A stretch of 62,128 bases of DNA from an uncultured bacterium. Its GTDB lineage: Bacteria; Verrucomicrobiota; Lentisphaeria; Oligosphaerales; Oligosphaeraceae. Under the pieces are notes generated by a model. That model worked only from the letters and a program-made list of their open reading frames with translations, made no database searches and was not told the DNA's origin. The position numbers and the translations under genes were made by a program. Where the stretch lies: assembly GCA_902776645.1 (NCBI GenBank), contig CACYQT010000011.1:1-62128 (forward strand). Direction: 5' to 3'. This document shows, piece after piece, positions 4,066 to 60,940 of the stretch (position 1 is its first letter; every line of letters begins with the position of its first letter).

Positions 4066-4087
4066 GCGTTTGTTTGGTTTGTCTTAA

Positions 4088-4187
4088 GCCAAGGGCGGGA
4101 CGCCCCCCTCGTTACAACCAAAATGCCAAGGGCGGGACGCCCTCGTTACAACCAAAATGCCAAGGGCGGGACGCCCTTGCTACCACC
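4088..4187 (+). repeat. Three tandem copies of a GGGCGGGACGCC hairpin unit
   Basis: GCCAAGGGCGGGACGCCC recurs at 4088, 4125 and 4159 with a 34-37 bp period. The first two units share a GTTACAACCAAAAT tail. The third copy contains the complete perfect hairpin CAAGGGCG-GGA-CGCCCTTG. The same unit occurs at 32048 and 32085. It lies between the TSCPD gene and the glycosyltransferase and may end transcription of the former. Confidence 0.8.
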
Positions 4188-4199
4188 CCCTAAAACATC

Positions 4200-17607: not shown

Positions 17608-17671
17608 TAAGTCTTTTCTTTCAATACATTTATTAACAGGAAGGCTTTTCGCGGACAACTTCCGTCCTTTC

Positions 17672-17822
17672 AACAACCGCCGGAGCCGTTTGCATTATTC
17701 GTGATCAACATTTTGTTTTATCATTGAATCCTTCGGGTATTATCGGCCCGGCGGCGAGGCACTTCTGTTTGTTTTGCGTGTTTTGTGAAAAATCTGTGTA
17801 TTCAGTGTATTCTGTGGTTTCC
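17672..17822 (+). repeat. Composite structured repeat, copy A (type 1)
   Basis: The left arm CCGCCGGAGCCG (17677-17688) can pair with CGGCCCGGCGG (17744-17754), which runs into GCGAGGC. The loop is 55 nt. The left flank is shorter than in other copies. The tail (ATCTGTGTATTC, ATTCTGTGGTTTC) follows to 17822. No gene is seen in the surrounding 280-bp spacer. Confidence 0.7.
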
Positions 17823-32027: not shown

Positions 32028-32103
32028 CAAGGCCGTCTCGGCCTTGTCAAGGGCGGGACGCCCTTGCTACCTCCTGTTTTTAGCCAAGGGCGGGACGCCC
32101 TTG
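32028..32103. repeat. Three perfect 19-nt hairpins in a row (8-bp stem, 3-nt loop)
   Basis: CAAGGCCG-TCT-CGGCCTTG (32028-32046), then CAAGGGCG-GGA-CGCCCTTG twice (32048-32066 and 32085-32103). Each is flanked by GCTACC-like sequence, and the last two are followed by TTTTT or a T-rich run. The first hairpin has a different stem that is still perfectly paired. They lie between two leftward genes and may end porin transcription. Confidence 0.85.
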
Positions 32104-32116
32104 CTACCTCCAGTTT

Positions 32117-41353: not shown

Positions 41354-41387
41354 ACTAGCCACTAGCCACTAGCCACTAACCACTAAA
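41354..41387 (+). repeat. Heptamer array CTAGCCA/CTAACCA
   Basis: ACTAGCC-type units in exact 7-bp phase fill the gap between two convergent genes. The array begins right after the ROK stop and supplies the TAG stop of the leftward gene (41383-41385). Confidence 0.8.
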
Positions 41388-46990: not shown

Positions 46991-47061
46991 TTCTAATCTC
47001 CTGTCATTTACTTAGTTATTATGACTAATACTAATTTTTCTTGTTATTTTTCCAGTTCTCT

Positions 47062-47096
47062 TTCGCGAAGCGAACACAACCGCCGAGCCGCCGGAG
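47062..47096 (+). repeat. Left-half fragment of the composite repeat (B0)
   Basis: TTCGC-GAA-GCGAA (47062-47074) is followed by ACAACCGCCGAGCCGCCGGAG, broken here by position 47096. No right half follows; the sequence runs into a GTCTC array. Confidence 0.7.
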
Positions 47097-47113
47097 ATTT
47101 TGCCAATCTCATC

Positions 47114-47194
47114 GTCTGGTGTCATCCGTCTAACGTCTTATCATCTATCGTCTCCGCTCGTCTCATGTCTCACGTCTCTCGTCTCATGTCCCCT
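47114..47194 (+). repeat. GTCTCAC/GTCTCAT heptamer array, partly decayed
   Basis: GTCTGGT, GTCATCC and GTCTAAC (decayed) lead to a cleaner run GTCTCAT, GTCTCAC, GTCTCTC, GTCTCAT, GTCCCCT (47160-47194). Confidence 0.7.
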
Positions 47195-47214
47195 ACCTTC
47201 CTCCAGAGGCAGCG

Positions 47215-47415
47215 CAATGGCTTCGAGCTTCCGCATGATGCTGTTCCCGCCTCGCGAAGCGATGACAACCGCCGAGCAGACGGAGCCGTTGTTTTTTCAG
47301 CATATAGAATTCATCATATGCAAACAAATTCTTCTGCTGATCGACGGTCGGCGGCGAGGCTTTCTGTATAATCCGTGTATTCTGTGGTTTCTAATTTTCG
47401 TGTCCTTTCATACTA
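47215..47415 (+). repeat. Composite structured repeat, copy B (chimaeric)
   Basis: GCCTCGC (47249-47255) and GCGAGGC (47354-47360) keep the outer stem. The inner left arm AGACGGAGCCG begins like type 2 and ends like type 1; the right arm CGGTCGGCGG (from 47345) is type-1-like. The loop is 56 nt. The tail (CCGTGTATTC, TCTGTGGTTTC) runs to about 47415. Confidence 0.75.
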
Positions 47416-47424
47416 CTATTATAG

Positions 47425-47686
47425 TTCATTTTCTTGTTTTTCTGAAAAGATTTTCTCCAAGGCATAGAGCTTCCGCATGATGCTGTTCCCGCCTCGCGAA
47501 GCGATGACAACCGCCGAGCAGACGGAGGACAACTTGATCTTCATCAATCCATCATGTCATACCAAAATAAACTCCTCAGCACCATGTCCGACGTCTGCGA
47601 GGCATTGATTGTCTTTTCAGTGTAATCTGTGTATTCTGTGGTTTCTAAAATTTCGTGTCTATTCGTGTCCATTCGTGGTTTGTCAA
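47425..47686 (+). repeat. Composite structured repeat, copy C (type 2, most complete)
   Basis: GCCTCGC (47491-47497) pairs with GCGAGGC (47597-47603). AGACGGAGGAC (47520-47530) pairs with GTCCGACGTCT (47586-47596) as AGACG/CGTCT and GGAC/GTCC around facing GA/GA; the loop is 55 nt. In this copy CTGAAAAGA (47442-47450) could also pair with TCTTTTCAG (47612-47620). The decamer-like tail (CGTGTCCATT type) runs to 47686 and overlaps the 3' end of the next gene. Confidence 0.85.
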
Positions 47687-48760
47687 TTGATGCTTTTTCA
47701 TCATGAATTCCGCCAGCCGTTCGTAGCCCGCCGCCAGCGGATGGCTTGCGTCGCCATATTCCTCCGACGGCAGTTCGGGCAGATCAACCGTCTTGTAACC
47801 ATTGTCTTTCAAACGCTTCAACGCGTCCGCCCGCAACGCGCGGTACTTCTCCAGACTGGCCGCCGTCTGCATGGACGGATTGACCGTTCCAACGACCGCC
47901 ACGACGGTGTTGCCGCGCTTTTTCAGCAGCTCCAACGTGGCCAGATAGCTCTTCCATTGCCGTGATTCGTCCAACGTCACCCACAGCCAATCCTGCTCCG
48001 CGATGCTTGCGTCCTCCCACGTGATCTTGCTGTCGCTCGGATGGCCTGTCTCCAGCGGTTCGATGTTGAGCGACAACTGTTTGTGCAACGGCTTATCGGG
48101 CTGTTTCGCCAAATGGTTCTTGACATCCTTATTGTCCAGAAACGCGACACGCACATGGTGGAGCAACGCCTCGAAATCGATGAAACGCTCCCAGACGGCC
48201 TTGCAGCGGTCTTCAAGACTCGCGTGGTAGCAGGGCGGCTTGCCGATGAACTGCGGCAGCAGCCGCGGATGGTTGATGACCAGTTCGCCGTCGCCGCTCA
48301 AATCATACAGCGGCGACGTCATCCACAGCGGATTCAGATAGACGTAGACGACGCGGTCGCGGACGGCTTTTCCATATTCGCGCATCAGCGTCTCCATGAC
48401 GACGGGATGCAATCCGTCGACCGCCAAATTGCCGATCTCCTCGCCGCCGAGCTTCGCGTTGAGAATCGCCGGAAGCGTGTGGTCGTTGCGGACATACATG
48501 CCCCACACGACGGAATCGCCGATGAACAGCGCGGGATGCGTCTCGACGACTTTCGCCGCGACGCTTCTATACAATAAATAATCGTCCCGTAGCTTGTAGG
48601 ACAACCGGAAATCCTTCGGCAGTTCAATTTGCAGACGCCGCGCATGCCACCGTGGCAACGCGAGCCACAGCACGGCGATCGTGACGCAGAGCACCGCCGC
48701 CCATTCCAGCGGCTTCAGCCACAACCCATTGGTATGTTCTATCTTAAGAATGCTTTTCAT
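47645..48760 (-). CDS. Membrane-anchored SGNH-hydrolase-like protein (O-acetylation partner)
   Basis: The 371-residue protein has one N-terminal transmembrane helix (about 16-34), a GDS block (LFIGDSVVWGMYVRND) and a catalytic Asp-x-x-His (GDASHPLAAGY), as in AlgX/AlgJ/DltD-type partners of MBOAT proteins. It starts 4 bp after the MBOAT stop, so the two are translationally linked and probably O-acetylate an exported polysaccharide. Its last residues (NHEWTRIDTKF) are encoded by the tail of composite repeat C, so the natural C-terminus has been extended or replaced by the repeat. Confidence 0.82.
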   Translation of the reverse strand: MKSILKIEHTNGLWLKPLEWAAVLCVTIAVLWLALPRWHARRLQIELPKDFRLSYKLRDDYLLYRSVAAKVVETHPALFIGDSVVWGMYVRNDHTLPAILNAKLGGEEIGNLAVDGLHPVVMETLMREYGKAVRDRVVYVYLNPLWMTSPLYDLSGDGELVINHPRLLPQFIGKPPCYHASLEDRCKAVWERFIDFEALLHHVRVAFLDNKDVKNHLAKQPDKPLHKQLSLNIEPLETGHPSDSKITWEDASIAEQDWLWVTLDESRQWKSYLATLELLKKRGNTVVAVVGTVNPSMQTAASLEKYRALRADALKRLKDNGYKTVDLPELPSEEYGDASHPLAAGYERLAEFMMKKHQLTNHEWTRIDTKF

Positions 48761-48764
48761 GGTG

Positions 48765-50084
48765 TCAGAACTGCTGGTAGATGAACTGTGAATTGGCGCC
48801 GCCGCCCAGAAGCAGGACGCAGACGAGCACGAAGACGGCCGCCGCGATGCGCGCCGCCCGCGTCTCCAGAATCCAGCGGAAACGGGAGGCCCACGTCAAT
48901 TCGTAGATCCACACGAGGCCGATCAAAACGAACGGCACAGGCGGGAAGGAGAAGTCGCCCTCCTCCCATGTCACGATGCCGCGGATCACGTCGAACGCGT
49001 CTTCGAAGCTCTCCGCCCGGAAGAAGATCCACGTCAGCGTCATGAAATGGAACACGGCGATCTGCTTGATGATTTTCGGAATCTTCCCGTACCATCCGCT
49101 CTTGTCGAACCAGCTGGAGACGACGCTGCCCACGCCATGCAGGCCGCCCCATGCGACGAACGTCCATGTCGCCCCGTGCCACGCGCCTGAAACCAGCATC
49201 GTGACGATCACGTTGAACCAGTTGCGCAGTTTCCCGCAGCGGCTACCGCCCATGGGGATGTAGACGTAGTCGCGGAACCATGTGGAGAGGCTGATGTGCC
49301 ACCGCCGCCAGAAGTCGCGGACATCGACGGATACGTACGGATTGTTGAAATTCAGCATGCAGCGGAAGCCCATGCAGCGCGCTACGCCGCAGGCCATGTC
49401 GCTGTAGCCTGAGAAGTCGAAATAGATCTGCCATGCGTAGGCGTATGCCGCCAACAGCCGCATCGCGCCGCTATACGACGTCACATCTTCATAGACGACA
49501 TTGACATAGACGGCCAGCATGTCCGCCATGACGGCCTTTTTGAAAAGCCCTGTCACGAACAGCGAGAAGCCTTCGGAGATGTCGTCGATGCGCAACGGGA
49601 CGTTGTGGTGCAACTGCGGCAGCAGCGTCGTCGCGCGATCAATCGGCCCCGCCACAAGTTGCGGGAAGAACGCCACATATGCGGCATAGGCCAGCAGGTT
49701 GCGCTCCACGGCAATTTTGCCGCGATAGACGTCGATGACATAGCTGATGGATTTGAACGTAAAGAACGACAGCCCGACGGGCAGCACCCAGTCGAAATCC
49801 GTCACCCGCGGGATGTATTTGAAGGAGCAAAGCATGCCCAGATCGACCAGCAGGCTGACGCATACCAGCCAACGGCTCCGATGTCTTGACAATTGCAGCG
49901 CAACGAGATAATCGACGATCGTCACAACGCCCAGGCAGATGAGAAAATACACGTTGAAACTGGCGTAGAAGACATATGACGCCGCCAGCAGCACAGGTAT
50001 GCGCAGCCTTGTCCCGCGCACCGCCCAATAGAGCAGCAGCACGGGAATGAAGAAAAGAAGAAACGTCCAGCTTTGAAATTGCAT
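48765..50084 (-). CDS. MBOAT family O-acyltransferase (AlgI-like)
   Basis: The 439-residue protein has many transmembrane helices. Key motifs are LPVGLSFFTFKSISYVIDVYRGKI, the RCMGFRCMLNFNNPYVSVDVRDFWRRWHISLSTWFRDYVYIP block and SGAWHGATWTFVAWGGLHG with the MBOAT histidine. AlgI-like proteins move acetyl groups across the inner membrane to a periplasmic transferase acting on a polysaccharide. The SGNH-like gene follows directly. No polymer synthase is seen in the window. Confidence 0.93.
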   Translation of the reverse strand: MQFQSWTFLLFFIPVLLLYWAVRGTRLRIPVLLAASYVFYASFNVYFLICLGVVTIVDYLVALQLSRHRSRWLVCVSLLVDLGMLCSFKYIPRVTDFDWVLPVGLSFFTFKSISYVIDVYRGKIAVERNLLAYAAYVAFFPQLVAGPIDRATTLLPQLHHNVPLRIDDISEGFSLFVTGLFKKAVMADMLAVYVNVVYEDVTSYSGAMRLLAAYAYAWQIYFDFSGYSDMACGVARCMGFRCMLNFNNPYVSVDVRDFWRRWHISLSTWFRDYVYIPMGGSRCGKLRNWFNVIVTMLVSGAWHGATWTFVAWGGLHGVGSVVSSWFDKSGWYGKIPKIIKQIAVFHFMTLTWIFFRAESFEDAFDVIRGIVTWEEGDFSFPPVPFVLIGLVWIYELTWASRFRWILETRAARIAAAVFVLVCVLLLGGGANSQFIYQQF

Positions 50085-50124
50085 TTTTTATAAAAATCGG
50101 CGGGAGGGTCGCTTCAGCAATAGC

Positions 50125-50229
50125 AGTGGCTAGTGGCTAGTGGTTAGTGATTAGTGGCTAGTGATTAGTGGCCTTTGCTTTCAGCTTTCAGCTTTTAGCT
50201 CTGCGAAGCAGCTGGCCCGGCGGCGAGGC
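50125..50229. repeat. Heptamer arrays AGTGGCT and GCTTTCA, then a right-half composite fragment
   Basis: Seven units AGTGGCT/AGTGATT (50125-50173), the reverse complement of the CTAGCCA/CTAACCA family, run into GCTTTCA, GCTTTCA and GCTTTTA, ending with CTGC-GAA-GCAG. GGCCCGGCGGCGAGGC (50214-50229) is a solitary right half of a type-1 composite repeat. Confidence 0.8.
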
Positions 50230-50245
50230 TTTTCATACTATTATC

Positions 50246-50495
50246 GTTCATTTTCCTGTTTTTCTGAAAAGATTTTCTCCATGACTGTGAGCTTCCGCAT
50301 GATGTCGTTCTCGACTTTGCGAAGCGATGACAACCGCCGAGCCGCCGGAGCCGTTGACTCTTCAGCTTTCAGAAGTCATTATGTACAAACATAATCCATA
50401 GGAGCTTGTCGGCCCGGCGGCGAGGCTTCTGTTTATTCTGTGTAATCTGTGGTTTCTAAAATTTTCGTGTTCATTCGTGTCGATTCGTGGTTCTA
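50246..50495 (+). repeat. Composite structured repeat, copy D (type 1)
   Basis: CCGCCGGAGCCG (50342-50353) pairs with CGGCCCGGCGG (50410-50420), with a 56-nt loop. The outer left arm is ACTTTGC instead of GCCTCGC; both C-to-T changes inside the stem still allow G-U pairs with GCGAGGC. The tail ends at the stop codon of the leftward SUMF-like gene. Confidence 0.8.
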
Positions 50496-51251
50496 TTTAT
50501 TTCTCACGCAACGGAATCCGTAGGTCTCGTAGCCCTGGCAGATGTCCGCCGTCGCGGGATCGTCCGCCTTGCGGGCGGAGCTGGAGACGTTCTTCGGGCG
50601 TTCCTGCCACGAGCCGCCGCGGAGAACGCGTTTCGCGCCGCTCTTCGGACCGCGCGGATCCTTCCCGCCTTCGGGATTCTCCGTGTAGAAATCGTTGCAC
50701 CATTCCGCGACATTGCCGTACATGTCGTACAGCCCGAACGCGTTGGGCTTCTTCTTGCCAACCGCCTGCGTGGAGTCGTTGGCGTTGTTGCGCGTCCACG
50801 CATGGGCGGCGAGCTGCTTTTCATTGCCGTCGAAATTCAGCTTGCCAGTAGTGCCTGCGCGGCAGGCGTACTCCCATTCGGCCTCCGTCGGCAGACGGTA
50901 GCCGTTGGCGGTGAAATCGCATTCCCACGTGCGGGGCGTGTAGCACGGCGTCAAGCCTTCGGCCTTGGAGCGGAGGTTGCAGAACAGCGCGGCGTCCGTC
51001 CAGCGGATGCGTTCGACGGGATGGTCGTCATGCTGGAATTTCGCGGGATTCTGGCCCATGATTTTCGTGTATTCCGCCTGCGTGATTTCGTATTTATCCA
51101 TGTAGAAGGAAGATACGGTGACGGAATGCGGCTTTTCGTCCGGCTTCCCCTTCGCGTCGCCCATCGTGAACGTCCCGCCGTTGATCAACACCATTTCGCC
51201 GGCAAACGCCGCCGACATCGTCAATGCAAATAAAAAGCCTGTGAGTTTCAT
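50493..51251 (-). CDS. SUMF1/FGE-like (sulfatase-modifying factor) domain protein, active cysteines missing
   Basis: The 252-residue protein starts MKLTGFLFALTMSAAFAG, a signal peptide. The domain is typical: MVLINGGTFTMGDAKG, YRLPTEAEWEYACRAG, YGNVAEWC and VLRGGSW...GFRCVR. The true formylglycine-generating enzyme has a Cys pair soon after RGGSW; here the segment reads QERPKNVSSSARK without Cys. It is therefore more likely a C-lectin-like binding or EgtB-type relative than a sulfatase activator. AAGGAATAAC precedes ATG 51251; the upstream in-frame extension is repeat sequence. Confidence 0.85.
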   Translation of the reverse strand: MKLTGFLFALTMSAAFAGEMVLINGGTFTMGDAKGKPDEKPHSVTVSSFYMDKYEITQAEYTKIMGQNPAKFQHDDHPVERIRWTDAALFCNLRSKAEGLTPCYTPRTWECDFTANGYRLPTEAEWEYACRAGTTGKLNFDGNEKQLAAHAWTRNNANDSTQAVGKKKPNAFGLYDMYGNVAEWCNDFYTENPEGGKDPRGPKSGAKRVLRGGSWQERPKNVSSSARKADDPATADICQGYETYGFRCVRNK

Positions 51252-51430
51252 GTTATTCCTTATATAATAATGACCGTGTATCTGTGATTTAATGTGCCAC
51301 ATGCCGCCGATTACGCAAGTATTTTTTGATGAATCCCGTGTTTTCTTCCATAAAAAGTTTTTTACCGCTGATTCATGATGAATGCATTCCGTCTCGCATC
51401 CACCTTTTCTCAACTTAATTTCAAATGAAA

Positions 51431-51510
51431 AGATACGAGACGTGAGACATGAGACGTGAGACATGAAAGTTGTGCCATAAAACATCAGTCTCGTATCTCG
51501 CGTCCCCTCT
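51431..51510. repeat. GTCTCRC-family arrays in opposite orientation, upstream of the four-helix gene
   Basis: AGATACGAGAC (51431-51441) is followed by GTGAGAC/ATGAGAC units, the reverse complement of GTCTCAC/GTCTCAT. GTCTCGTATCT (51488-51498) is its exact complement, followed by CGCGTCCCC in forward orientation. The two can fold as a hairpin with a ~46-nt loop. The rest of 51252-51652 is AT-rich with no clear gene. Confidence 0.75.
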
Positions 51511-51652
51511 TTTTCACGATATTTGGGCAAGTTTTTTCAAAATAACTTTTCTCAAACTACATTTGATAATTAGTAATTATCAATTATAATAATGTTGGAA
51601 AATAAGATACTCATCATCTGTCTTTCCCTTTTCCCAAACAATAGTTTCCCTC

Positions 51653-52402
51653 ATGACTGAAATCATTGGCACATATGGCGGCTACCGAAGGACTATGTCA
51701 TTTGGTTTCATATGTCTAATCTATCATGCGACGGAGATTTTCTGTCGTCGCAATTATTCGTATCAAAACGATGCGCTTGGAAAAACAGTTGGCCAGATGA
51801 TTGGCGCGGCAAGGTCGGCACGGCAAAATATCGTTGAAGGTTCCTCACGTTCAGGAACGAGCAAGGAAACAGAATTACGCCTCTATGATGTCGCAAAAGG
51901 TTCACTTGAAGAACTGGCAGGTGATTATGAGGCATTTTTAGTCGGACACGGTGAAATTCCATGGGCGGAAAACACACCTCCGACCACAAGTCTTAAATCT
52001 CTCGTTCTTGACCGTTATACCGGTCCGCTTACCCGTCATGACTATGGGGCATATATTGTTGAAATGCGCCATCGTTTCAAATCATTTCTTGAAGCGGAGG
52101 ATCCAGTTGTTGCGGCGAATTCCATTCTGATTGTGATCGATCAGGCATGCAAGTTGCTGCATCGGCAAATGGAAAGCATTGCAGCCGCATTCCGCGAAGA
52201 GGGAGGCTTCACTGAACGCATGAGCAAGGCGCGGCTTGAAACTCGAGACACGCAGATAGCGTCTCTGGACACGCCGATCTGCCCGAAATGCGGTAAACCG
52301 ATGCGAAAAATGATCGCACATAAAGGACGTAATGCAGGCAATCCATTCTGGAGCTGCACAGGCTACCCGAATTGCAATGGCACACGAAATTTCATTGGGT
52401 AA
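51653..52402 (+). CDS. Four-helix-bundle protein (TIGR02436/S23-IVS type) fused to a topoisomerase-type zinc ribbon
   Basis: The 249-residue protein has an N-terminal four-helix bundle (about 20-170), including KTVGQMIGAARSARQNIVEG and GTSKETELRLYDVAKGSLEELAGDYEAFL, characteristic of the TIGR02436 family. That family includes proteins found in 23S rRNA intervening sequences and is related to Avd, the accessory protein of diversity-generating retroelements. A C-terminal zinc ribbon (C210, C213, C235, C241; FWSCTGYPNCNGT) is the type found at the end of DNA topoisomerase I. NCBI calls this layout 'four helix bundle suffix domain'. No reverse transcriptase is visible nearby. GTCTCRC arrays flank the gene on both sides. 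Nucleic-acid binding is likely; the precise role is unknown. Confidence 0.82.
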   Translation: MTEIIGTYGGYRRTMSFGFICLIYHATEIFCRRNYSYQNDALGKTVGQMIGAARSARQNIVEGSSRSGTSKETELRLYDVAKGSLEELAGDYEAFLVGHGEIPWAENTPPTTSLKSLVLDRYTGPLTRHDYGAYIVEMRHRFKSFLEAEDPVVAANSILIVIDQACKLLHRQMESIAAAFREEGGFTERMSKARLETRDTQIASLDTPICPKCGKPMRKMIAHKGRNAGNPFWSCTGYPNCNGTRNFIG

Positions 52403-52416
52403 ATAGCTTCTTTATC

Positions 52417-52507
52417 GTCCCACGTCTCGCGTCCCACGTCTCGCGTCCCACGTCTCGCGTCCCACGTCTCGCGTCTCATGTCTCGCGTCTCATGTCTCGC
52501 GTCCCGC
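52417..52507 (+). repeat. GTCCCAC/GTCTCGC heptamer array (13 units)
   Basis: Alternating GTCCCAC and GTCTCGC, then GTCTCAT/GTCTCGC, without any indel over 91 bp. It begins 14 bp after the stop of the four-helix gene. Confidence 0.95.
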
Positions 52508-52526
52508 GCCATTCCATTATCATGAC

Positions 52527-52573
52527 AAACAAACGGCGCGACTTCCAAGAGAAAATCGCGCCGTTTGTTTTTA
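52527..52573. terminator. Bidirectional terminator between convergent genes
   Basis: AAACAAACGGCGCGA (52527-52541) pairs perfectly with TCGCGCCGTTTGTTT (52556-52570), with a T-run after it on the + strand and A-rich sequence on the left. Confidence 0.9.
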
Positions 52574-52592
52574 AATGTTCAGCTTAAGTGAA

Positions 52593-53363
52593 TTAACGGA
52601 ATTTAGATTCCGAAAGCGTGAAAATAAATACATTGGTATCAAAATCAGCCTGGAACTTGGCCATCGTCCCGGAACCGCAATGTCCGTCACCAAATCCGAT
52701 ATTGCACGCTCCGTTATGGCAGAAGACTTTCTCAGGATACCAATTGGTCCCCGTGAACTGGGTCTTCTGGCAAGGATCGACGCGGTAGTTGTCCGTCAGC
52801 AAAATGGTGGCGGAAGGATAGTTGAGTTTCCCAACGCAGGGGGCTTTGCTATTGCCAAAATCAGAATAGGACTGCCAGTTGCCGCTTTGATACCAGCCCA
52901 TGAAACGGTTCCAGGCGTATGTCGTCACGTTGATTGTTTTGCCGTCGACCTTGACAGCCTGGTTCGAATAGTCGCCGTTTGACCAATGCATGGTGCATGA
53001 GGAATCAGGGCACATAAGCGAATTATCTGTTTTGTAGGTGGACATGTCAGATGGGAAATTGCCGCCATTCGTATTGCCGCCGCCGCCCAGATAGGGATTC
53101 ATGCATTCCACCCACAGCTTCCAGCCATCGGCCCAATTGCCGCCGCCATTATCGCCGCCATTTTTTATCTCGCAGGGGACGAACTTCTCGTAATCGCCTG
53201 CGTACATGTTGTTGGCCAGAAGAATTTGCTTCTGGTTGTTCGTGCACGAAATGGCACGCGCCTTGTCACGTGCCTTGGACAGGGCGGGCAGCAGCATGGC
53301 CGCAAGAATCGCGATAATCGCGATGACCACCAGCAATTCAATCAATGTAAAATGCTTTTTCAT
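52593..53363 (-). CDS. Pseudopilin-like protein with type IV prepilin N-terminus
   Basis: The 256-residue protein starts [18 protein letters not shown], a prepilin signal with mature F1 and E5; the residue before the cleavage site is His, not Gly. The body ([23 protein letters not shown]..., [22 protein letters not shown]) is of the large pseudopilin type expanded in Lentisphaerota and Planctomycetota, where each genome has many. Their role (surface structure or substrate capture) is unclear. AAGGAGCCCCGA precedes the ATG and a good promoter lies upstream. Confidence 0.9.
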
Positions 53364-53435
53364 TCGGGGCTCCTTTGGGTTTGTTTTTTGTTATAACTTG
53401 TAAGGGGTGGGCATTTACAACAACAACATTTGCCC

Positions 53436-53465
53436 TTAATATGCACCCCAAAGAAACCATGTCAA
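53436..53465 (-). promoter_or_regulatory. Promoter of the pseudopilin gene
   Basis: On the minus strand, a perfect TTGACA (53465-53460), an 18-bp spacer and TATTAA (53441-53436). The predicted leader is about 65 nt. An A/T-only tract lies just upstream (53470-53500). Confidence 0.6.
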
Positions 53466-53553
53466 CAACTTTTTTAATTTTTTTTTAATTTTTTTACCAC
53501 CATGCCAACAATTGCCCTATGGGCAGGGCATATGGCTCATAACGTTTCATCTA

Positions 53554-53630
53554 TCGTCTCGCGTCCCACGTCCCACGTCTCGCGTCCCACGTCTCGCGTC
53601 CCACGTCTCGCGTCCCACGTCTCGCGTCTC
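53554..53630 (+). repeat. GTCTCGC/GTCCCAC heptamer array (11 units)
   Basis: The units alternate as in the 52417 array, again without indels. It is followed by TCGACGGCGAGGACGCC, whose GCTAC end provides the TAG stop of the next gene. Confidence 0.95.
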
Positions 53631-53661
53631 ACCCTCCCCCTCGACGGCGAGGACGCCATCG

Positions 53662-54858
53662 CTACTTGAATTCAATAACGTCTTCGCCATTAATTTTCAA
53701 CGTGCTATGGACAAAATGGATGGCGGCTTTCCGCGCGCTCAGCTCGATGGCGGTTCCCGTGTAGTCGTCCATGGATCCGCCTGGCCGCGAGCCGATGACG
53801 ACGGGGCACGGCTCGCCGAGATTGTCCCATGCGTGCCCAGGCCTGACGACGCGGATCGTGTGGAAGTGCCCGCAGAGCATCAGCTGCGGCTTGACATTCT
53901 CGCGCAACAACTTGCACCATTCTCGATAGATGTCCAGTTCGATGTCGAACGGCTTGTTGTTGATGTGCATGAACGGCACGTGGCAGACGATCAGGCGGTA
54001 TTTCACATCGGCCGCGTCGTATTCGTTGGCGGCGTTCGCGATGACTCGCTTCAGATAGTCCGTCTCCTTCACGCGGAAGTCGTGGCATGCGACGGCGTGG
54101 CCGTATTCGGCATGCCCGTCGTCTTTGTCTTCGCCGCAGTCGAGAACAATCCCCCAGACGGGGCCGAGGCGGAATGTGTAGTAGAAATAGCCGTCGCGAA
54201 CAGGCGCGTATAACGGGAGCTGTTCCGCCATGGCGCCGCGCAGTTCATGGTTGCCGCGGGCATAGACAACTGGTATTTCGCCATTTGTGACGCCGCCCGC
54301 GATTTTGTAGATCTGCGCGATGTTGTTGTAGCCGCTCAGCCCTTCCGAAATGTCGCCGTTGAGGATGAGCAAATCCAGTTCCTTGCCGAAATACTGCGCG
54401 GCGGCGATGGACGCCTTGACGTGGTCATGGGTGTCCGGCAGCATGAATATCTTGATGTTCTCCGTCTTTTCAAGCGGACGGAACGCATAGGTCTTTTTCT
54501 GGAGAGGTTCCGTCTTGGTGTAATACTCTGCGCGTTTTTTTACGACACGGCAGCATAGCGTGTATTCCTTCGCGGCGTTGAGTTCGGCCTGCGGGACGGT
54601 CATTCGCCGGACACGCGTGGCGGTGTTGATGACGCCGTTGTTCGCGTCATAGTACGTCTTGCCGTTGATTTCGCACGAAATCATGGCTTCGGTCACGACG
54701 GGAACCATGATCTGGTAGTCGTGGCCGACGGCGAAGACGACGGGCGGCGTCTGCAAAACGTCCTCTGGAAACTTCTTTGGCCCAGGCTGTTGCGCGGCAG
54801 GCTCCTGGGCATGGCAAAGGCTGATCAGGCAGATGACAAGGCAGATGACTTTCTTCAT
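53662..54858 (-). CDS. Secreted calcineurin-like metallophosphoesterase, paralogue 1
   Basis: The 398-residue protein has a signal peptide (MKKVICLVICLISLCHAQ) and then a beta domain with MTVPQAELNAAKEYTLCC. Metal motifs: LPDTHDH, LLILNGDISE, YARGNHELRG, VCHVPF and CGHFH (full GHxH). It is closely similar along its length to the protein encoded at 58844-60163, sharing PEDxLQTPPVV, LQKKTY and VIANAANEY. Likely cleaves a phosphate ester or a nucleotide/phospholipid head group in the periplasm. Stop codon lies in a repeat. Confidence 0.88.
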   Translation of the reverse strand: MKKVICLVICLISLCHAQEPAAQQPGPKKFPEDVLQTPPVVFAVGHDYQIMVPVVTEAMISCEINGKTYYDANNGVINTATRVRRMTVPQAELNAAKEYTLCCRVVKKRAEYYTKTEPLQKKTYAFRPLEKTENIKIFMLPDTHDHVKASIAAAQYFGKELDLLILNGDISEGLSGYNNIAQIYKIAGGVTNGEIPVVYARGNHELRGAMAEQLPLYAPVRDGYFYYTFRLGPVWGIVLDCGEDKDDGHAEYGHAVACHDFRVKETDYLKRVIANAANEYDAADVKYRLIVCHVPFMHINNKPFDIELDIYREWCKLLRENVKPQLMLCGHFHTIRVVRPGHAWDNLGEPCPVVIGSRPGGSMDDYTGTAIELSARKAAIHFVHSTLKINGEDVIEFK

Positions 54859-54920
54859 AATGGTTGTATTCTTATCCTTTATTTTCTGGTTTTCTTACAT
54901 AGTTTTCTGTCTGTCTAATC

Positions 54921-54962
54921 GTCCACCGTCTCGCGTCTCATGTCTCACGTCTCATGTCCCCT
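54921..54962 (+). repeat. GTCTCRC heptamer array (six units)
   Basis: GTCCACC, GTCTCGC, GTCTCAT, GTCTCAC, GTCTCAT and GTCCCCT, in the spacer between divergent genes. Confidence 0.85.
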
Positions 54963-55090
54963 CCCACAACATTTTATTGTAAAATAGCCTTCGGAAAGCG
55001 AATGGCAAATGGAAAAACACGGTTTGCCATGAAAAAGCCGCGGGAGCGTCTATATTACTTGTCACACAAAAAAACAGAAAGGCGGTGCAT

Positions 55091-56701
55091 ATGCGAAAAA
55101 CGGTCTTTGTTCTCTTGGTCATAATGGCTTCAATCGCGGAGGCAATGCAAATGGAAATCGTGAAAACTGGTAGATTCAGCCCTGAAAATGCTTCTGACAA
55201 ACTTGCGGCGCAGTCATTTGCGGATGCGTTGCTGCCTGTGCGGCGAACATTCGAAGACGGACAGGTCTTCTGGAACGGCTTCGCAAGACAGTTCATCTAC
55301 GCGCCGTATTTCGAATTCAAGAAGCTGGAACATGCTGTAAAATACCGCTTTACGGTTATTGGAAGCGACAAGGCGGAGCTTGTGTTCGACGCGGATTCGC
55401 CCTACGCGGCCTTGACGCCTGTCTGGGGTGCCGTGCCCGAAGGCGACACGACCGTGAAAGCCGTCGGTCTGGACGCGGATGGAAAGGAACTAGGCGTCAG
55501 CGGCGAACGCAAATTCTATCGGATGCAGCCCTTCGACAACGCGTACGCCCCGAAGGCGAAACCGTATCTGGAGGTCGCGAAGGGCGTTTATCATTACTTG
55601 TTGACCATGAACGCGATCCAATATTTAAAAAGCGGCAGGACGGATCCGGACTACACGCATTACTGCTATCCAAGCAAGATGCATGCGTCGATCATTGAAG
55701 GCTTGCTGGAATATGCGGAACTGGAGCCTTCCGTGAAGGCGGAGGCCGTCGAAATCGCGACGCAATGCGCGGACTATCTCATGCGGACGGCCGTGGCGGC
55801 TGGCGAACCGCTGGAATATCTTCCGCTGACGTATCTTGTGCCGACGACGGAAGATGGCAAACGGCTGGTCGCCGCATCAAAGGTCGGCACGATCATGATG
55901 ATCTATCCGGCGGTTGTCGGCAACGCGATGATCCGTCTGTACAAGGAGACGAAGGAGCAGAAATATCTGGACTACGCGGTGAAGATCGGCGAGCAGTATC
56001 TCCGCCTGCAACGGGAGGACGGCACATGGGCGCTGATTCTGAAAATCGCCGACGGCTCGGTCGTGGCGCCGAACAGTTGCGAACCGGTCGACATCCTGCC
56101 GTTTTTGGGGAATCTCGGCGAAACGACGGGCCGCAATGCTTTTTTGAAGGCGGCGGAACGCGGCATGCTCATTGTGTATGAACGCATTAGGACGCTCCAT
56201 TGGGAAGGCCAGTTCGAAGACATCAACGCGCAGGTGGCCCCCTACAGCAACCTCTCGAAGCATCCCGCCACGAGCAGTTTCCTATTCCTTTATAATATTC
56301 TGAAGAAGAAAGGCGCTGCGCCGAGGCCGGAATTCGTTTCGCATGCACGTGAAGTGCAGCGGTTTGCGGAAGACCAGTTCGTCGTGTGGCGGCGTCAGGG
56401 AGCGGAATGGCGGATGGCCCCCGCCGCGTTGGAGCAGTACAACTGCTACGCCATTGTGGACGCATCCGTCGCGAAGATGGTCCGCTACTATCTGCTGATG
56501 TACGATCTGGAGAAGAATCCGCTGGATTTGGCGAAGGCGCGTGCATTGGGCGATTCGCTGACGCGCGCCCAGTTGCCCAACGGCCGGATTCCGACATGGT
56601 ACTATGAAGACAAGATCATCCCCGGCGGCGACTGGATCAACTGCATGTTCGCCAGCGCCTATGCGCTGAAACTGCTGGCGAAATACGACGACATCCAGTA
56701 A
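55091..56701 (+). CDS. Secreted (alpha/alpha)6-barrel-type protein, candidate glycoside hydrolase or lyase
   Basis: The 536-residue protein has a signal peptide (MRKTVFVLLVIMASIAEAMQ), a short beta domain (to about 150), then a helical domain with regularly spaced helices and loops (YLEVAKGVYHYLLTMNAIQYL, RLYKETKEQKYLDYAVKIGEQYLRLQREDGTW, DILPFLGNLGETTGRNAF, ALGDSLTRAQLPNGRIPTWYYED). This looks like a six-hairpin glycosidase/uronyl-hydrolase fold. The catalytic residues cannot be fixed. ATG 55091 follows GAAAGG; a GTG two codons earlier is possible. Confidence 0.7.
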   Translation: MRKTVFVLLVIMASIAEAMQMEIVKTGRFSPENASDKLAAQSFADALLPVRRTFEDGQVFWNGFARQFIYAPYFEFKKLEHAVKYRFTVIGSDKAELVFDADSPYAALTPVWGAVPEGDTTVKAVGLDADGKELGVSGERKFYRMQPFDNAYAPKAKPYLEVAKGVYHYLLTMNAIQYLKSGRTDPDYTHYCYPSKMHASIIEGLLEYAELEPSVKAEAVEIATQCADYLMRTAVAAGEPLEYLPLTYLVPTTEDGKRLVAASKVGTIMMIYPAVVGNAMIRLYKETKEQKYLDYAVKIGEQYLRLQREDGTWALILKIADGSVVAPNSCEPVDILPFLGNLGETTGRNAFLKAAERGMLIVYERIRTLHWEGQFEDINAQVAPYSNLSKHPATSSFLFLYNILKKKGAAPRPEFVSHAREVQRFAEDQFVVWRRQGAEWRMAPAALEQYNCYAIVDASVAKMVRYYLLMYDLEKNPLDLAKARALGDSLTRAQLPNGRIPTWYYEDKIIPGGDWINCMFASAYALKLLAKYDDIQ

Positions 56702-56743
56702 AGGAGACGCCATCGGCATCCCGCCGTTGGCCACTTCAGGCAA

Positions 56744-56995
56744 GATTCTGTTTTTCCTGTTTTTCGCAAAGATTTTCTCCATGGCTTCGAGCTGCCGCAT
56801 GAGGTCGTTCCCGCCTCGCGAAGCGATGACAACCGCCGAGCCGCCGGAGCCGTTAATCCTTCAACATTCGGATTCCATTATAAACAAACAAAACCTTCAG
56901 GAGATTGTCGGCCCGGCGGCGAGGCATTCAGTGTAATCTGTGTTTTCTGTGGTGCCTAAAATCAAATAATTCGTGTCCATTCATGGTTAAATCTC
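56744..56995 (+). repeat. Composite structured repeat, copy E (type 1)
   Basis: GCCTCGC (56813-56819) with GCGAGGC (56919-56925). CCGCCGGAGCCG (56841-56852) with CGGCCCGGCGG (56909-56919). The loop is 56 nt. The tail reads AGTGTAATCTGTG then TTCGTGTCCATTC. Part of the 582-bp spacer 56702-57283, which has no gene. Confidence 0.85.
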
Positions 56996-57003
56996 TTGCA
57001 TTA

Positions 57004-57223
57004 AGAGCTGCCGCATGATGTCGTTCCCGCCTCGCGAAGCGATGACAACCGCCGAGCAGACGGAGGACAACTTGATGCTTCTTCACTCAAAATCCCATGC
57101 TGATAAAAAACTCTTCACCACCATGTCCGACGACTGCGAGGCATTGATTGTCTTTTCAGTGAATCTGTGTATTCTGTGGTTTCTAAAAATTTCGTGTCCT
57201 TTCGTGTCCTTTCGTGGTTCCAT
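57004..57223 (+). repeat. Composite structured repeat, copy F (type 2)
   Basis: GCCTCGC (57029-57035) with GCGAGGC (57136-57142). AGACGGAGGAC (57058-57068) with GTCCGACGACT (57125-57135), one mismatch. The loop is 56 nt. Tandem with copy E. The tail ends about 60 bp before the next start codon. Confidence 0.85.
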
Positions 57224-57283
57224 ATCAATAACTTAACATCATTCATCCGCTCCAGTTTTTCCCATCGTACCCACCATCACACC

Positions 57284-58534
57284 ATGAAAAATCATCCGGC
57301 CATCCTGTTCATTTTCGCCCTGTTTGCGTCCGTCGTCGCCGCCGCCCAGCCGAACGGCCATCCCGTCGGCCAGATCCTCTATGAAACGCCAGACGACACG
57401 ATGGGCTCCTTCGCAAACGGCATCCTCTTCAAAGACGATCTCGAAAAGCCAATCGTCGATTTCGCCAAGCCTGGCGACAAAATGGTCCATGTCTCCACGT
57501 TCTGCATCATCGACGACATCGTCTATTGCACCTACTACGCCAACACCGTCGGCAAGCAAGAGACTCCCGCCGAACAACTTGCACGATTCGTCACCTGCCC
57601 GCTCGCCAACCCGCAGGACAAGACCTACCACGACCTCTGCTGGACGCAGACCGTCGCCAAGGCCGAAAACCGCGAGGAGATTCTCATCGACGGCAAGCAT
57701 ATCACCCACCTCTACGACATCGTCCTCCTTCGGAAGGATGACAAGACGCTCTATCTCGCCTGGACACTCGCCCTCGACGGCGAATACTACCGTGTCTACC
57801 GCACGTACGACGTGCCGTCCAAAACCTTCGGCGACATCAAGATAAACGATTTCACCGTCAACGGCAGGACCGTCCCCTTCCGCACGTCCTCCGTCACGAA
57901 TCTGCTGAAGCAGGAGGGCGTCGCCTTCAAGCCGATGCAGGGCGACATCGGCATCATGCAGAAGCTCTCCAAACGCGTGGAGAACGGCATCGACTACTAC
58001 TACACAGGTTGCTACTGCGGCCCCTTCAACTGCCTCATGAAGAGCCAAGACCTTGTCAATTGGGAATTTGTGTCCGTTCCGGATTTTCCGAACGACTCCC
58101 AGTGGGAGAACGCCGTCTATGTGAAGGGCGACCGCGCCTACTATTTCTGCCGCCAGTACTCCCGCAACAACACGGCCTTCCTTACTTATTATGATTTGGC
58201 GAAAAAGACGTGGCACGAGCCCGTCTGGGTCCATGAGGCCCAGTCCCGCTACGATTTCATCGAATGGCAGGGCAATCTCTACATGGTCCATTCGCCGAAA
58301 GACCGTTGGCATCTCGCCATCATGAAAATCGACCAGAGCGAAATCTCCCGCAGCTACGACGTGCAGTGCGCATGGGTAGTCGATTCGTTCTACCCGTTCA
58401 TGCAGGAGTACAAAGGAAAGCTGTACATGAGCTTCACGCAGAGCCGCAAGCACATCTGGCTGTCCAACTTCCGCATCCGCCCGCTCACCACCGCGCAGGT
58501 CGTCGACAAGTTCCGCAAGCTTCTCGAAGACTGA
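57284..58534 (+). CDS. Secreted beta-propeller-like protein, possibly sialidase/GH43-like
   Basis: The 416-residue protein starts MKNHPAILFIFALFASVVAAAQ, a signal peptide. Then come repeated short beta blocks with aromatic/Asp loops, e.g. DDIVYCTYYANTVG, DKTLYLAWTLALDGEYYRVY, GIDYYYTGCYCGPFNCLMKSQDLVNWEFVSVPDFP and GDRAYYFCRQYSRNNTAFL, consistent with a five- or six-bladed propeller. 'SQDLVNWE' is a BNR/GH43-like phrase. No catalytic set can be assigned. The frame is open upstream through the repeat tail, but the signal peptide sets the start. No ribosome-binding site. Confidence 0.7.
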   Translation: MKNHPAILFIFALFASVVAAAQPNGHPVGQILYETPDDTMGSFANGILFKDDLEKPIVDFAKPGDKMVHVSTFCIIDDIVYCTYYANTVGKQETPAEQLARFVTCPLANPQDKTYHDLCWTQTVAKAENREEILIDGKHITHLYDIVLLRKDDKTLYLAWTLALDGEYYRVYRTYDVPSKTFGDIKINDFTVNGRTVPFRTSSVTNLLKQEGVAFKPMQGDIGIMQKLSKRVENGIDYYYTGCYCGPFNCLMKSQDLVNWEFVSVPDFPNDSQWENAVYVKGDRAYYFCRQYSRNNTAFLTYYDLAKKTWHEPVWVHEAQSRYDFIEWQGNLYMVHSPKDRWHLAIMKIDQSEISRSYDVQCAWVVDSFYPFMQEYKGKLYMSFTQSRKHIWLSNFRIRPLTTAQVVDKFRKLLED

Positions 58535-58664
58535 TCTTCTCTTCTTGTTTTTCTGCAAAAGACGTATATCTTTAAAAAAAAACACCAACCATCGTTCCCG
58601 CAGGAGCGGGCCGGTTGAGTCCATAAGCTTTACACTGGCGAAAGATGCGCTTCCAACTCTCCAC

Positions 58665-58841
58665 ATCCCATTCGTCCCAGCTGTCCCATTCGTCCCATCT
58701 GTCCCATTCGTCCCAGCTGATATACTAACCACTAACCACTAACCACTAACCCTAACCCCTAACCCCTAACCACTAACCACTTAATTATGCATTATGCATT
58801 ATGCATTATGCATTGAACTAACCCCTAACCACTAACCACTC
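58665..58841 (+). repeat. Nonamer, CTAACCA and ATGCATT arrays in series
   Basis: Six nonamers of the GTCCCATTC/GTCCCAGCT type (58665-58718), CTAACCA/CTAACCC heptamers (58725-58782), ATGCATT heptamers (58784-58815), then CTAACCA-type again to 58841, ending three bases before the next ATG. They fill most of the spacer 58535-58843; a leader-like TTCTTGTTTTTCTG precedes them. Confidence 0.9.
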
Positions 58842-58843
58842 AA

Positions 58844-60163
58844 ATGAAAAAACTCCTCCTCCTCTTCCTCTGCATCTTCTGCCTCACCCACGCCCAGCAA
58901 CAGCCCGCCCCCGCGGCTCCGCCCGCTCCGCCCGCTCCGCCTGCACCGCCCGCCGTCCAGAAACCTGCCGAACCGCAACAGCCTGCCGCCCAGAAACCAG
59001 CGGAACAGAAACCCGCCGTCGAAGCGGCAAAACCCGCCGAACCGCCTAAGCCCGAGCCCAAGAAACTGCCGGAAGACATCCTTCAAACGCCGCCCGTCGT
59101 CTATGCCGTCGGCAACGAATACCAGATCATGGCCCTCGTCAAGCAGGATCTGCCCGTCGTCATGTGGGTGGAAGTCAACGGAAAATCCTACTACGATGCG
59201 TCGAACGGCATCCTCCGCTCCGCCAGAAGCTCTCATCGCATGACCGTCCCGCAGTCGGAACTGAACGCCGCGAAGGAATACACGCTTTGCTGCCACGTCC
59301 TCACGAAGCGCAAGGCCTATTTCACCCAGACGGAGCCGCTTCAGAAGAAGACCTACAAATTCCGCCCGATTGAAAAGACCGAGAACATCAAGTTTTTCAT
59401 GCTGGGCGACTGCCACAACCGCGTCAAGGCCCCCATCGCGGTCACGCAATACTACGGAAAGGATCTCGACCTGCTCATCCTCAACGGCGACATTCTGGAC
59501 CGCTCCGAAAAATACAGCGATCTCATCAATCTCTTCAAAGTCGCCGGCGGCGCCACGAACGGTGAAATTCCCGTCGTCTATGCCCGCGGCAACCATGAAC
59601 CGCGCGGCGTCATGGCGGAGGAGCTCGAATACTACTCGCCGCTCCGCAACGGCTATTCATACTTCACGTTCCGCGTCGGCCCGATCTGGGGCATTGTGCT
59701 CGATTGCGGCGAAGACAAACCCGACGGCCATGACGCATACGGCCACACGATCGCCTGCCATCCCTTCCGCCTGGAGGAGACGGAATATCTGAAGAGCGTC
59801 ATCGCGAACGCCGCCAACGAATACAACGCGCCCGACGTGAAATACCGCCTGGTCGTCTGCCACATCCCGTTCATTCGCGGCACGTTCGAAGCCGACATCT
59901 ACCGCGAATGGTGTACGCTTCTCCGCGAAAATGTCAAACCGAACCTGATGTTCTCCGCCCACTACCATCGTCTGAAGGTCGTCCGTCCCGGTGACGATTG
60001 GGACAAGAACGGCATCCCCTGCACCGTCGTCATCGGCTCCCGTACGGGCAAAGGCGACGACTATACGGGAACCGCCGTCGAGCTGACCGAAAAGAACGCC
60101 GCCGTCCGTTTCGTCAACTTCACCCAGAAAGTCGAAGGCGAAGACATCATCGAGTTCAAGTAA
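58844..60163 (+). CDS. Secreted calcineurin-like metallophosphoesterase, paralogue 2 (Pro/Ala-rich linker)
   Basis: The 439-residue protein has a signal peptide (MKKLLLLFLCIFCLTHAQ), then a Pro/Ala/Lys-rich linker (about 20-72, APPAPP repeats) that the paralogue at 53662-54858 lacks. Metal motifs: LGDCHNR, LLILNGDILD, YARGNHEPRG, VCHIPF and SAHYH, where the Gly of GHxH is Ala. The body is highly similar to paralogue 1. The linker could span peptidoglycan or tether the enzyme. No ribosome-binding site; the ATG follows directly on CTAACCA repeats. Confidence 0.88.
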   Translation: MKKLLLLFLCIFCLTHAQQQPAPAAPPAPPAPPAPPAVQKPAEPQQPAAQKPAEQKPAVEAAKPAEPPKPEPKKLPEDILQTPPVVYAVGNEYQIMALVKQDLPVVMWVEVNGKSYYDASNGILRSARSSHRMTVPQSELNAAKEYTLCCHVLTKRKAYFTQTEPLQKKTYKFRPIEKTENIKFFMLGDCHNRVKAPIAVTQYYGKDLDLLILNGDILDRSEKYSDLINLFKVAGGATNGEIPVVYARGNHEPRGVMAEELEYYSPLRNGYSYFTFRVGPIWGIVLDCGEDKPDGHDAYGHTIACHPFRLEETEYLKSVIANAANEYNAPDVKYRLVVCHIPFIRGTFEADIYREWCTLLRENVKPNLMFSAHYHRLKVVRPGDDWDKNGIPCTVVIGSRTGKGDDYTGTAVELTEKNAAVRFVNFTQKVEGEDIIEFK

Positions 60164-60168
60164 CGACG

Positions 60169-60334
60169 GCGTCCCGCCAATACTCCTAACTTAAGCCCCT
60201 TAGGGGCGGCAGGAATTTAGCCGTGGGTGAAGCGAACGCCAGAGGCGTGAACGTAACCCACGGTAAAACAGGAAAACAAATGGAACCGCGTTAGCGGTGG
60301 CAGGAACAAAAGTCAGGAGTATTAGCGTCCCGCC
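60169..60334 (+). mobile_element. Putative 145-bp MITE-like element with TIRs and direct repeats, rich in hairpins
   Basis: AATACTCCT (60179-60187) and AGGAGTATT (60315-60323) are perfect inverted repeats. GCGTCCCGCC lies outside them on both sides (60169-60178 and 60325-60334). Inside are GCCCC-TTA-GGGGC (60195-60207), CCGTGGGT...ACCCACGG (60221-60228/60256-60263) enclosing ACGCC-AGA-GGCGT, and ACCGC-GTTA-GCGGT (60285-60298). GGCAGGAA follows two of the hairpins. No coding frame. The outer direct repeats may instead be two members of the GGGCGGGACGCC family. Confidence 0.55.
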
Positions 60335-60344
60335 GTTGGCTCTT

Positions 60345-60630
60345 CGGCTTTCAGCTTTCGGCTTTCGGCTTTCGGCTTTCGGCTTTCGGCTTTCGGCTTT
60401 CGGCTTTCGGCTTTTAGCTTTCGGCTTTTAGCTTTCGGCTTTTAGCTTTCAGCTCTGCCAAGCATCCGTCCCATCCGTCCCAGCCGTCCCATCTGTCCCA
60501 TCTGTCCCATCCGTCCCATCTGTCCCATCCGTCCCATCTGTCCCATCTGTCCCATCTGTCCCATCTGTCCCAGTACCCACTAAACACTAATCACTAACCA
60601 CTTAATTATGCATTATGCATTATGCATTAA
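60345..60630 (+). repeat. Heptamer CGGCTTT, nonamer GTCCCATCT, CACTAAC and ATGCATT arrays in series
   Basis: Sixteen heptamers (60345-60456), twelve nonamers (60468-60575), four CACTAAC-type heptamers (60578-60605) and TTATGCA units to 60630. The order nonamer, CTAACCA, ATGCATT and the junction CCACTTAATTATGCATT are the same as at 58665-58815. Confidence 0.95.
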
Positions 60631-60634
60631 AAAA

Positions 60635-60722
60635 GTCTGCGAGGCACTGATTGTCTTTTCAGTGTAATCCGTGTATTCTGTGGTTTCTAAAAATTTCGTG
60701 TTTTTTCGTGTCCATTCGTGGT
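60635..60722 (+). repeat. Right-half fragment of a type-2 composite repeat with tail (G0)
   Basis: GTCTGCGAGGCACTGATTGTC and the complete tail, without a left half. It adjoins copy G. Confidence 0.8.
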
Positions 60723-60940
60723 AGAGCTTCCGCATGACATCCTTTGCATCTCGCGAAGCGATGAACAACCGCCGAGCAGACGGAGGACAACTTGATCTTC
60801 AGCAATCCATCATGTCATACCCCAATACCCCCTCAGCACCATGTCCGACGTCTGCGAGGCACTGATTGTCTTTTCAGTGTAATCCGTGTATTCTGTGGTT
60901 TCTAAAAATTTCGTGTTTTTTCGTGTCCATTCGTGGTTCC
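60723..60940 (+). repeat. Composite structured repeat, copy G (type 2)
   Basis: CTCGC (60750-60754) with GCGAG (60854-60858). AGACGGAGGAC (60778-60788) with GTCCGACGTCT (60843-60853). The loop is 54 nt. The tail ends seven bases before the next ATG. Confidence 0.85.

Follow-up and report, generated by a model that had tools for sequence, protein, structure and literature searches.

Miniature inverted-repeat transposable elements (MITEs) are small, non-coding sequences that reach high copy number and are moved in trans, and short tandemly repeated repetitive (STRR) sequences is the name given to tandem repeats with a short unit. Repetitive extragenic palindromic (REP) sequences are described, in the passages of PMC3733652 and PMC6006769 that treat them, as 20 to 40 bp long with a GTAG or CGTC tag, those with GTAG being thought to be moved by REP-associated tyrosine transposases (RAYTs). 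For the IS200/IS605 insertion sequences, a passage of PMC5371812 describes an orientation that follows replication. The repeat treated here was noticed in a 62,128-nt stretch of DNA (the window), contig CACYQT010000011.1 of assembly GCA_902776645.1, from an uncultured rumen member of the Oligosphaeraceae; it is contig C11 of the host genome, G000, an assembly of 5.01 Mb in 164 contigs, and is compared below with two congeners (sister species), G023 and G024. There is good support for regarding this repeat as a mobile, folded, non-coding element oriented according to GC skew.

Copy number and distribution

The element is roughly 165 to 300 nt long and non-coding. A full copy consists of a left end (ACTACTATCGTTCATTTTCTTG...), then a mini-hairpin and a long GC-rich stem with its loop, and a right end made of repeats with a period of 9 to 10 nt (TTCTGTGTATTCTGTGG, TTCGTGTCCATTCGTGGTT). 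The host genome has the 21-nt core GAAGCGATGACAACCGCCGAG, with at most 3 mismatches, 78 times (44 forward, 34 reverse), which is far above chance, as the reversed-pattern control gives 0 matches there. From the loci around the core matches, 75 distinct copies were taken. A covariance model built from the element, R1, with 128 candidates scored per genome in a family-wide search, finds 127 matches in G000, 120 in G023 and 92 in G024, and 0 in the 26 other genomes of the family, so that 3 of 29 are positive. The exact core is also present, within the named collection, in two rumen Victivallales assemblies (RGIG7794, RGIG7578) and two Corynebacterium contigs. Copies are mostly intergenic: 99 of 110 host matches have no overlap of more than 60 nt with any open reading frame (ORF) of at least 120 aa, and 11 do overlap. 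Tandem and nested copies occur.

Orientation and GC skew

As a proxy for replication direction, which it would reflect, we use the strand-corrected third-position GC skew. A first count took the skew of whole stretches over 1.53 Mb, and a second took R1 matches and local skew over 1.92 Mb; most stretches were picked because they contain copies. In the first, which omits two core matches without a right boundary (C79:16783 and C83:11385), the C-rich strand carries 48 of 58 collapsed copies at an absolute skew of at least 0.05. The second starts from 113 matches, which become 110 on removal of two 28-bit end fragments and one duplicate, and places 75 of 87 on the C-rich strand at the same threshold (p = 2.7 × 10−12), 62 of 69 at an absolute skew of at least 0.1, 56 of 66 when copies within 5 kb are clustered, and 86 of 110 with no cut-off. 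Orientation is uniform in 26 of the 32 multi-copy host contigs and, among the matches listed for G023 and G024, in 15 of 16.

REP families in the same stretches exhibit no bias, with 17/32 and 5/9 on the C-rich strand, and other repeats there score 35/58 (AGCTTTC), 16/27 (CGTCTC) and 9/13 (TGTCCC). ACTAACC tandem repeats are found in the window at 41354-41387, 50125-50171, 58725-58843 and 60570-60605. The gene upstream of a copy has no orientation preference (49 to 50), and the gene downstream is antisense in 67 of 99 cases. An earlier note on this DNA had treated the placement of all copies on the + strand of the window as something that needs its own explanation; this is not supported, orientation following GC skew genome-wide. 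The ribosomal protein L2 gene lies on the G-rich strand of its region, which supports taking the G-rich strand as leading.

Copies in the window

R1 finds all seven copies that the earlier note had made out, on the + strand as it said, and three fragments of the element lie in the window beyond those seven. The copies come with two kinds of inner-stem arms, here types 1 and 2.

17644-17760, + strand: copy A, diverged core with type 1 inner stem and degenerate left part (R1 42.9 bits, E = 1.4 × 10−7, weak); arms at 17677-17688 and 17744-17754, spacing 55 nt
47062-47096, + strand: left fragment (mini-hairpin and left arm) without matching right arm (repeat search and sequence)
47223-47414, + strand: copy B, core 47247-47360, hybrid arms, right-end repeats, with copy C directly after it (R1 108.1 bits)
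47415-47680, + strand: copy C, full-length, type 2 core 47489-47603, left end ACTATTATAGTTCATTTTCTTG at 47415 and right end TTCGTGTCCATTCGTGGTT at 47662-47680 (R1)
50202-50229, + strand: right-arm fragment TGCGAAGCAGCTGGCCCGGCGGCGAGGC behind a GCTTTCAGC tandem repeat (from the sequence); not in the G024 site
50237-50492, + strand: copy D, full-length, type 1 core 50312-50426 (R1 125.7 bits)
56740-56988, + strand: copy E, type 1 core 56811-56925, both right-end repeat blocks, left limit by eye (R1 132.8 bits)
57003-57219, + strand: copy F, type 2 core 57027-57142, truncated left end (R1 74.8 bits)
60635-60722, + strand: right end alone (GTCTGCGAGGC and TGTG repeats) behind ATGCATT tandem repeats (repeat search and sequence)
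60723-60938, + strand: copy G, type 2 core 60746-60860 with right end (R1 69.8 bits)

The inner arms are CCGCCGGAGCCG and CGGCCCGGCGG in copies A, D and E, and AGACGGAGGAC and GTCCGACGTCT in C and G, and for these copies the two arm types described earlier are borne out. Pairing had been claimed for every copy; it is kept in most, with the exceptions of B, which is a hybrid of type 1 and type 2 arms, and F, whose arm GTCCGACGACT brings one mismatch. The arms had been placed 54-56 nt apart in all seven copies, and the spacing is indeed near-constant, measured here as 53-56 nt across the window copies.

Empty sites in the sister species

The site of copies B and C has the same flanking genes in G024 and G023, with about 30 and about 26 nt between the aligned flanks against about 690 in the window, and the stretch 47004-47694 is missing from both species. 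The copy D site is empty in G024, which has a short spacer there. Elsewhere in the genome, the site C70:3223 carries a copy in G000 but not in G024, and for one C46 site the reverse holds. Because several sites are empty in a sister species, the element moves. The readable junctions reveal no target duplication of 5 nt or more: copy D has none, a 4-nt repeat at the C46 site may be due to chance, and C70:3223 is ambiguous. Gene order around copies E and F differs in G024. The window genes at 53662-54858 and 58844-60163 are similar and in opposite orientation (inverted repeats I1-I4, 74-83% alike), and gene order in G024 differs in the region of this pair as well.

KOPS and Chi are signals kept on one strand by selection, and the strong strand bias might be read in the same way, as that of a replication-orientation signal that does not move. 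We regard this as very improbable, since matches are confined to three sister species of the 29 family genomes, copies present in one species are absent at the same site in another, and tandem and nested copies occur.

Fold and covariation

The stem was obtained with RNAalifold and completed by eye, and it differs from that of the earlier note. GCCGAG, immediately 5' of the inner arm, is the partner of the invariant right boundary CGAGGC, and this pairing gives the foot of the stem the order GCC/GGC, two tandem G.A mismatches, G/C, and then the inner stem. Alignment A1, which holds 61 distinct copies that have 9 nt of left flank and reach the right boundary in at most 112 nt, and omits copies with long loops or cut by contig ends, has GA/GA at the G.A positions in 60 of the 61. 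The outer stem GCCTCGC/GCGAGGC of the earlier note is rejected, being 79% paired in A1 with no change on both sides, and since it falls, the argument that two C-to-T changes in copy D keep G-U pairs falls with it.

In A1, 93.7% of cells in the revised stem are paired, and 22 cells are double changes versus 4.3 ± 1.8 in shuffles. A second alignment has 56 double-change cells versus 14 ± 3, with further double changes at other pairs. The relatives, aligned with the same model, have 30 versus 8.3 ± 2 in 44 distinct rows, including one pair that is A-U in four rows. Alignments A2 and A3 were fitted to the model structure and lean towards it. In all three alignments the inner-stem covariation exceeds both shuffles and slid controls; the inner stem covaries, also in relatives. 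Paired changes in a DNA palindrome may, however, also arise by template switching without selection.

Among the 113 host matches, 73 have type 1 arms, 20 have type 2, and three are clear hybrids. Much of the apparent covariation is the swap of one stem block for another, which comes close to the earlier note's own caveat of two ancestral sequences copied without change. The single-pair changes and the relatives partly rescue the earlier claim of a selected fold: its compensated inner stem is supported, with changes beyond the switch between types 1 and 2. The loop is 50-58 nt long in 97 of the 108 full matches in the fetched host sequence (one locus being counted twice), and several longer loops in the copy lists contain tandem repeats such as GCTAAAAGC. 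The mini-hairpin on the 5' side has a GNA loop, reading GCGAAGC in 50, GCGCAGC in 3 and GCGTAGC in 2 of the 61 copies, and triloops of this kind have very high stability in DNA. When three window copies were folded as RNA, the stem and the mini-hairpin came out again (z −2.3 to −2.9). In three copies the two strands are about equal in folding, so folding energy does not separate out a functional strand.

The covarying stem in three alignments, the common predicted fold of the three window copies and the mostly intergenic placement would also fit a structured RNA, whether an element or a gene, that is under selection and acts post-transcriptionally, for example on transcript ends or stability. 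Such a role looks improbable to us. Rfam at gathering scores has 0 matches in the window, which leaves no known RNA family there, and no long T run follows the stem in the listed copies. Orientation tracks GC skew and not the upstream gene, matches are restricted to 3 of the 29 family genomes, and sites differ between sister species; the strand bias and the empty sites point to mobile DNA instead.

Architecture of the whole element

The left end ACTACTATCGTTCATTTTCTTG... is found at 43 places with at most 3 mismatches, and the left module is missing from some copies. At the loci L167, L170, L190 and L193 the left end is joined to a different body with inverted CGTCTCA repeat arms, and at L170 and L193 the right-end repeats come after that body. 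As some left ends thus lead into a CGTCTCA body, the ends can be separated from the stem body. Within common ends, one stem block can replace another, and pairing is mostly kept. The left and right ends of solo elements are unlike each other by eye, so there are no terminal inverted repeats. An origin of the left module as antisense coding sequence (MRKLYALEKIFSEKQENER before a stop in one frame) was rejected: codon periodicity is not clear, and the frame is interrupted by a stop in 31 of 64 copies.

Candidate enzymes

The host genome has one GxxExxY gene, on contig C30, encoding a PDDEXK_3 protein (match E = 2.2 × 10−41). It lies between one reverse and one forward element copy, right ends outward. 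The fetched host sequence holds 18 further neighbouring pairs less than 1.2 kb apart, and each of them consists of copies in a single orientation. G024 has one divergent pair with no gene between its copies. At the matching site G024 and G023 lack the GxxExxY unit and instead have 202 and 136 nt, respectively, of other sequence. G023 has a GxxExxY homologue (69% DNA identity) at another site, again between reverse and forward copies.

Across the phylum, GxxExxY is present in 163 of 288 genomes drawn. An arm test took 31 loci, namely the 30 best-scoring among the matches listed and L324, and scored 28, three being too short. Flanking inverted arms with a score of at least 14 are found at 23 of the 28 loci versus 0 of 56 shifted control windows, a result that supersedes an earlier test with an ORF finder (17/26). 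By eye, 18 of the 23 armed loci follow AACCAC.GAGG.CAC.GAGG, the pattern of the element's right end. With at most 1 mismatch, the right-end pattern is found in 34 of 194 phylum genomes, in some of them as close inverted pairs. At L306, L313 and L325-L354, the GxxExxY genes are often bracketed by short inverted repeats that conform to one general pattern. The literature search found no paper giving GxxExxY genes a role in moving flanking repeats; PMC8934634 names GxxExxY in a passage that does not treat repeats. The position of the gene suggests that GxxExxY may be the helper, and we propose that the gene itself may be mobile.

Y1 transposases are another kind of candidate. The host genome has five Y1 genes, four of which sit among other palindromes, and as direct partners they are rejected, since pattern search and inspection by eye place the element in none of the five 3-kb loci. 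The TnpA gene on C48, IS200-like by eye, has other flanks in this incomplete assembly. REP-like GGGCGGGACGCCC palindromes lie in the window at 4080-4195 and 32048-32119, and a related GGCGGGACGCC family flanks the Y1 gene at C126. The element might still be a non-autonomous derivative of an IS200/IS605-type or RAYT Y1 transposase, moved at the lagging-strand template. The presence of Y1 genes in the genome speaks for this, as do the link between orientation and replication that PMC5371812 and PMC6006769 describe for IS200/IS605 and the fact that readable junctions showed no target duplication of at least 5 nt. We nevertheless consider it unlikely in view of the Y1 loci just described, the unbiased REP families of the same genome, and the hairpin foot, which in the A1 consensus is preceded by ACAACC and carries no GTAG/GTGG (or CGTC) tag. 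Moreover, if the G-rich strand is the leading one, the lagging template is not the strand with the structure.

Four-helix-bundle (TIGR02436) genes were also rejected as partners. There are six in the genome, and R1 finds only copy D in their loci, more than 1 kb from the gene in L322; several of them sit beside other tandem repeats. The window has such a gene at 51653-52402, with a weak 23S_rRNA_IVP match below Pfam's cut-off and a zinc ribbon, between inverted TGAGACG/CGTCTCA runs at 51430-51466 and 52413-52510.

Proposed mode of movement

Because of the strand bias, the fold and the lack of a clear target duplication, we infer single-strand transfer. On balance the family likely spreads by way of a folded single strand exposed at the replication fork, with GxxExxY perhaps as helper. 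The folded strand of the element would become exposed at the fork and be transferred as a single strand, the helper would be the GxxExxY PD-(D/E)XK protein or a lost relative, and the solo elements would be non-autonomous derivatives of the GxxExxY unit.

A number of observations weigh against this account. In G023 the D site is taken up by other copies, and the G site of G024 contains copies as well. Twelve of the 87 matches lie on the other strand (contigs C7, C8, C16, C21, C70, C77, C112, C115 and C125), and six multi-copy contigs are mixed in orientation. Of these, C32 is near neutral skew, C5 has two minus copies in positive skew and two plus copies near its end at a local skew of +0.04, a pair that is formally discordant though the last 20-kb block is at −0.018, and C7, C8, C77 and C125 hold copies that do not fit. 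Two tandem-repeat families are also biased, ACTAACC (29/34) and TTATGCATT (17/22, p = 0.017). The copies around GxxExxY in G023 differ in type and one is without the usual right end, so the unit is not a simple copied composite, and there is no DNA match over the gene in G024 despite its many elements. A transposase with these ends was not found in the host genome, which is 89% complete, so that a missed gene is possible. The assignment of the G-rich strand as leading comes from one ribosomal-protein gene, with no mapped origin; if it holds, the folded strand would be the lagging strand's own sequence and not its template. That placement would be the reverse of the IS200/IS605 transposed strand, and an IS200/IS605-like route would use the complement.

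A bolder version of replication-linked single-strand spread, which we offer only tentatively and would sooner bet against, is an unnamed class of mobile DNA in which the GxxExxY nuclease drives elements whose ends are inverted repeats of 9-10 nt period, and non-autonomous hairpin forms invade forks as folded single strands, swapping stem blocks and keeping the fold. If true, the class would explain the scattered AACCACGAATGGACACGAAT-type intergenic repeats across the phylum, and if GxxExxY moves its flanking repeats, that would explain both the genes and the widespread short intergenic repeats. What was an odd repeat in any case becomes a mobile-element family open to testing, having a fold, defined ends, an orientation linked to replication and a candidate helper, and its strand bias is a possible marker of replication direction in unfinished genomes.

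Comparison with known systems

STRR sequences resemble the repeats here in their 7-10 nt intergenic units, which are abundant in this genome and present in some element loops, but they are without the conserved stem and ends of the element. REP sequences and bacterial interspersed mosaic elements (BIMEs), with their RAYTs, are like it as short palindromic, non-coding intergenic repeats in many copies and of mosaic build, and in the single-strand DNA enzyme proposed for them. The element differs in its length of about 165-300 nt, in having no such tag and no flanking RAYT that we could find, and in being strand-biased, which this genome's REPs are not.

With IS200/IS605 it shares an orientation that follows replication (75/87, by the GC skew proxy), a fold, and the lack of a clear target duplication. 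Against this likeness, no TnpA with the element's ends was found, the right end is a 9-10 nt tandem repeat, and the folded strand would be on the other side of the fork if the G-rich strand is leading. The element is like MITEs in being small, non-coding, of high copy number and probably moved in trans; in contrast to them, its two ends differ in solo copies, a clear target duplication is missing, and only the GxxExxY pairs are inverted.

GxxExxY/PDDEXK_3 genes with inverted repeats are the remaining comparison. In the other genomes inspected their arms are short by eye and the long stem was not seen there (R1 not being applied), but the arms share AACCAC.GAGG.CAC.GAGG with the element's right end, and in two species the gene lies between two copies of the element.

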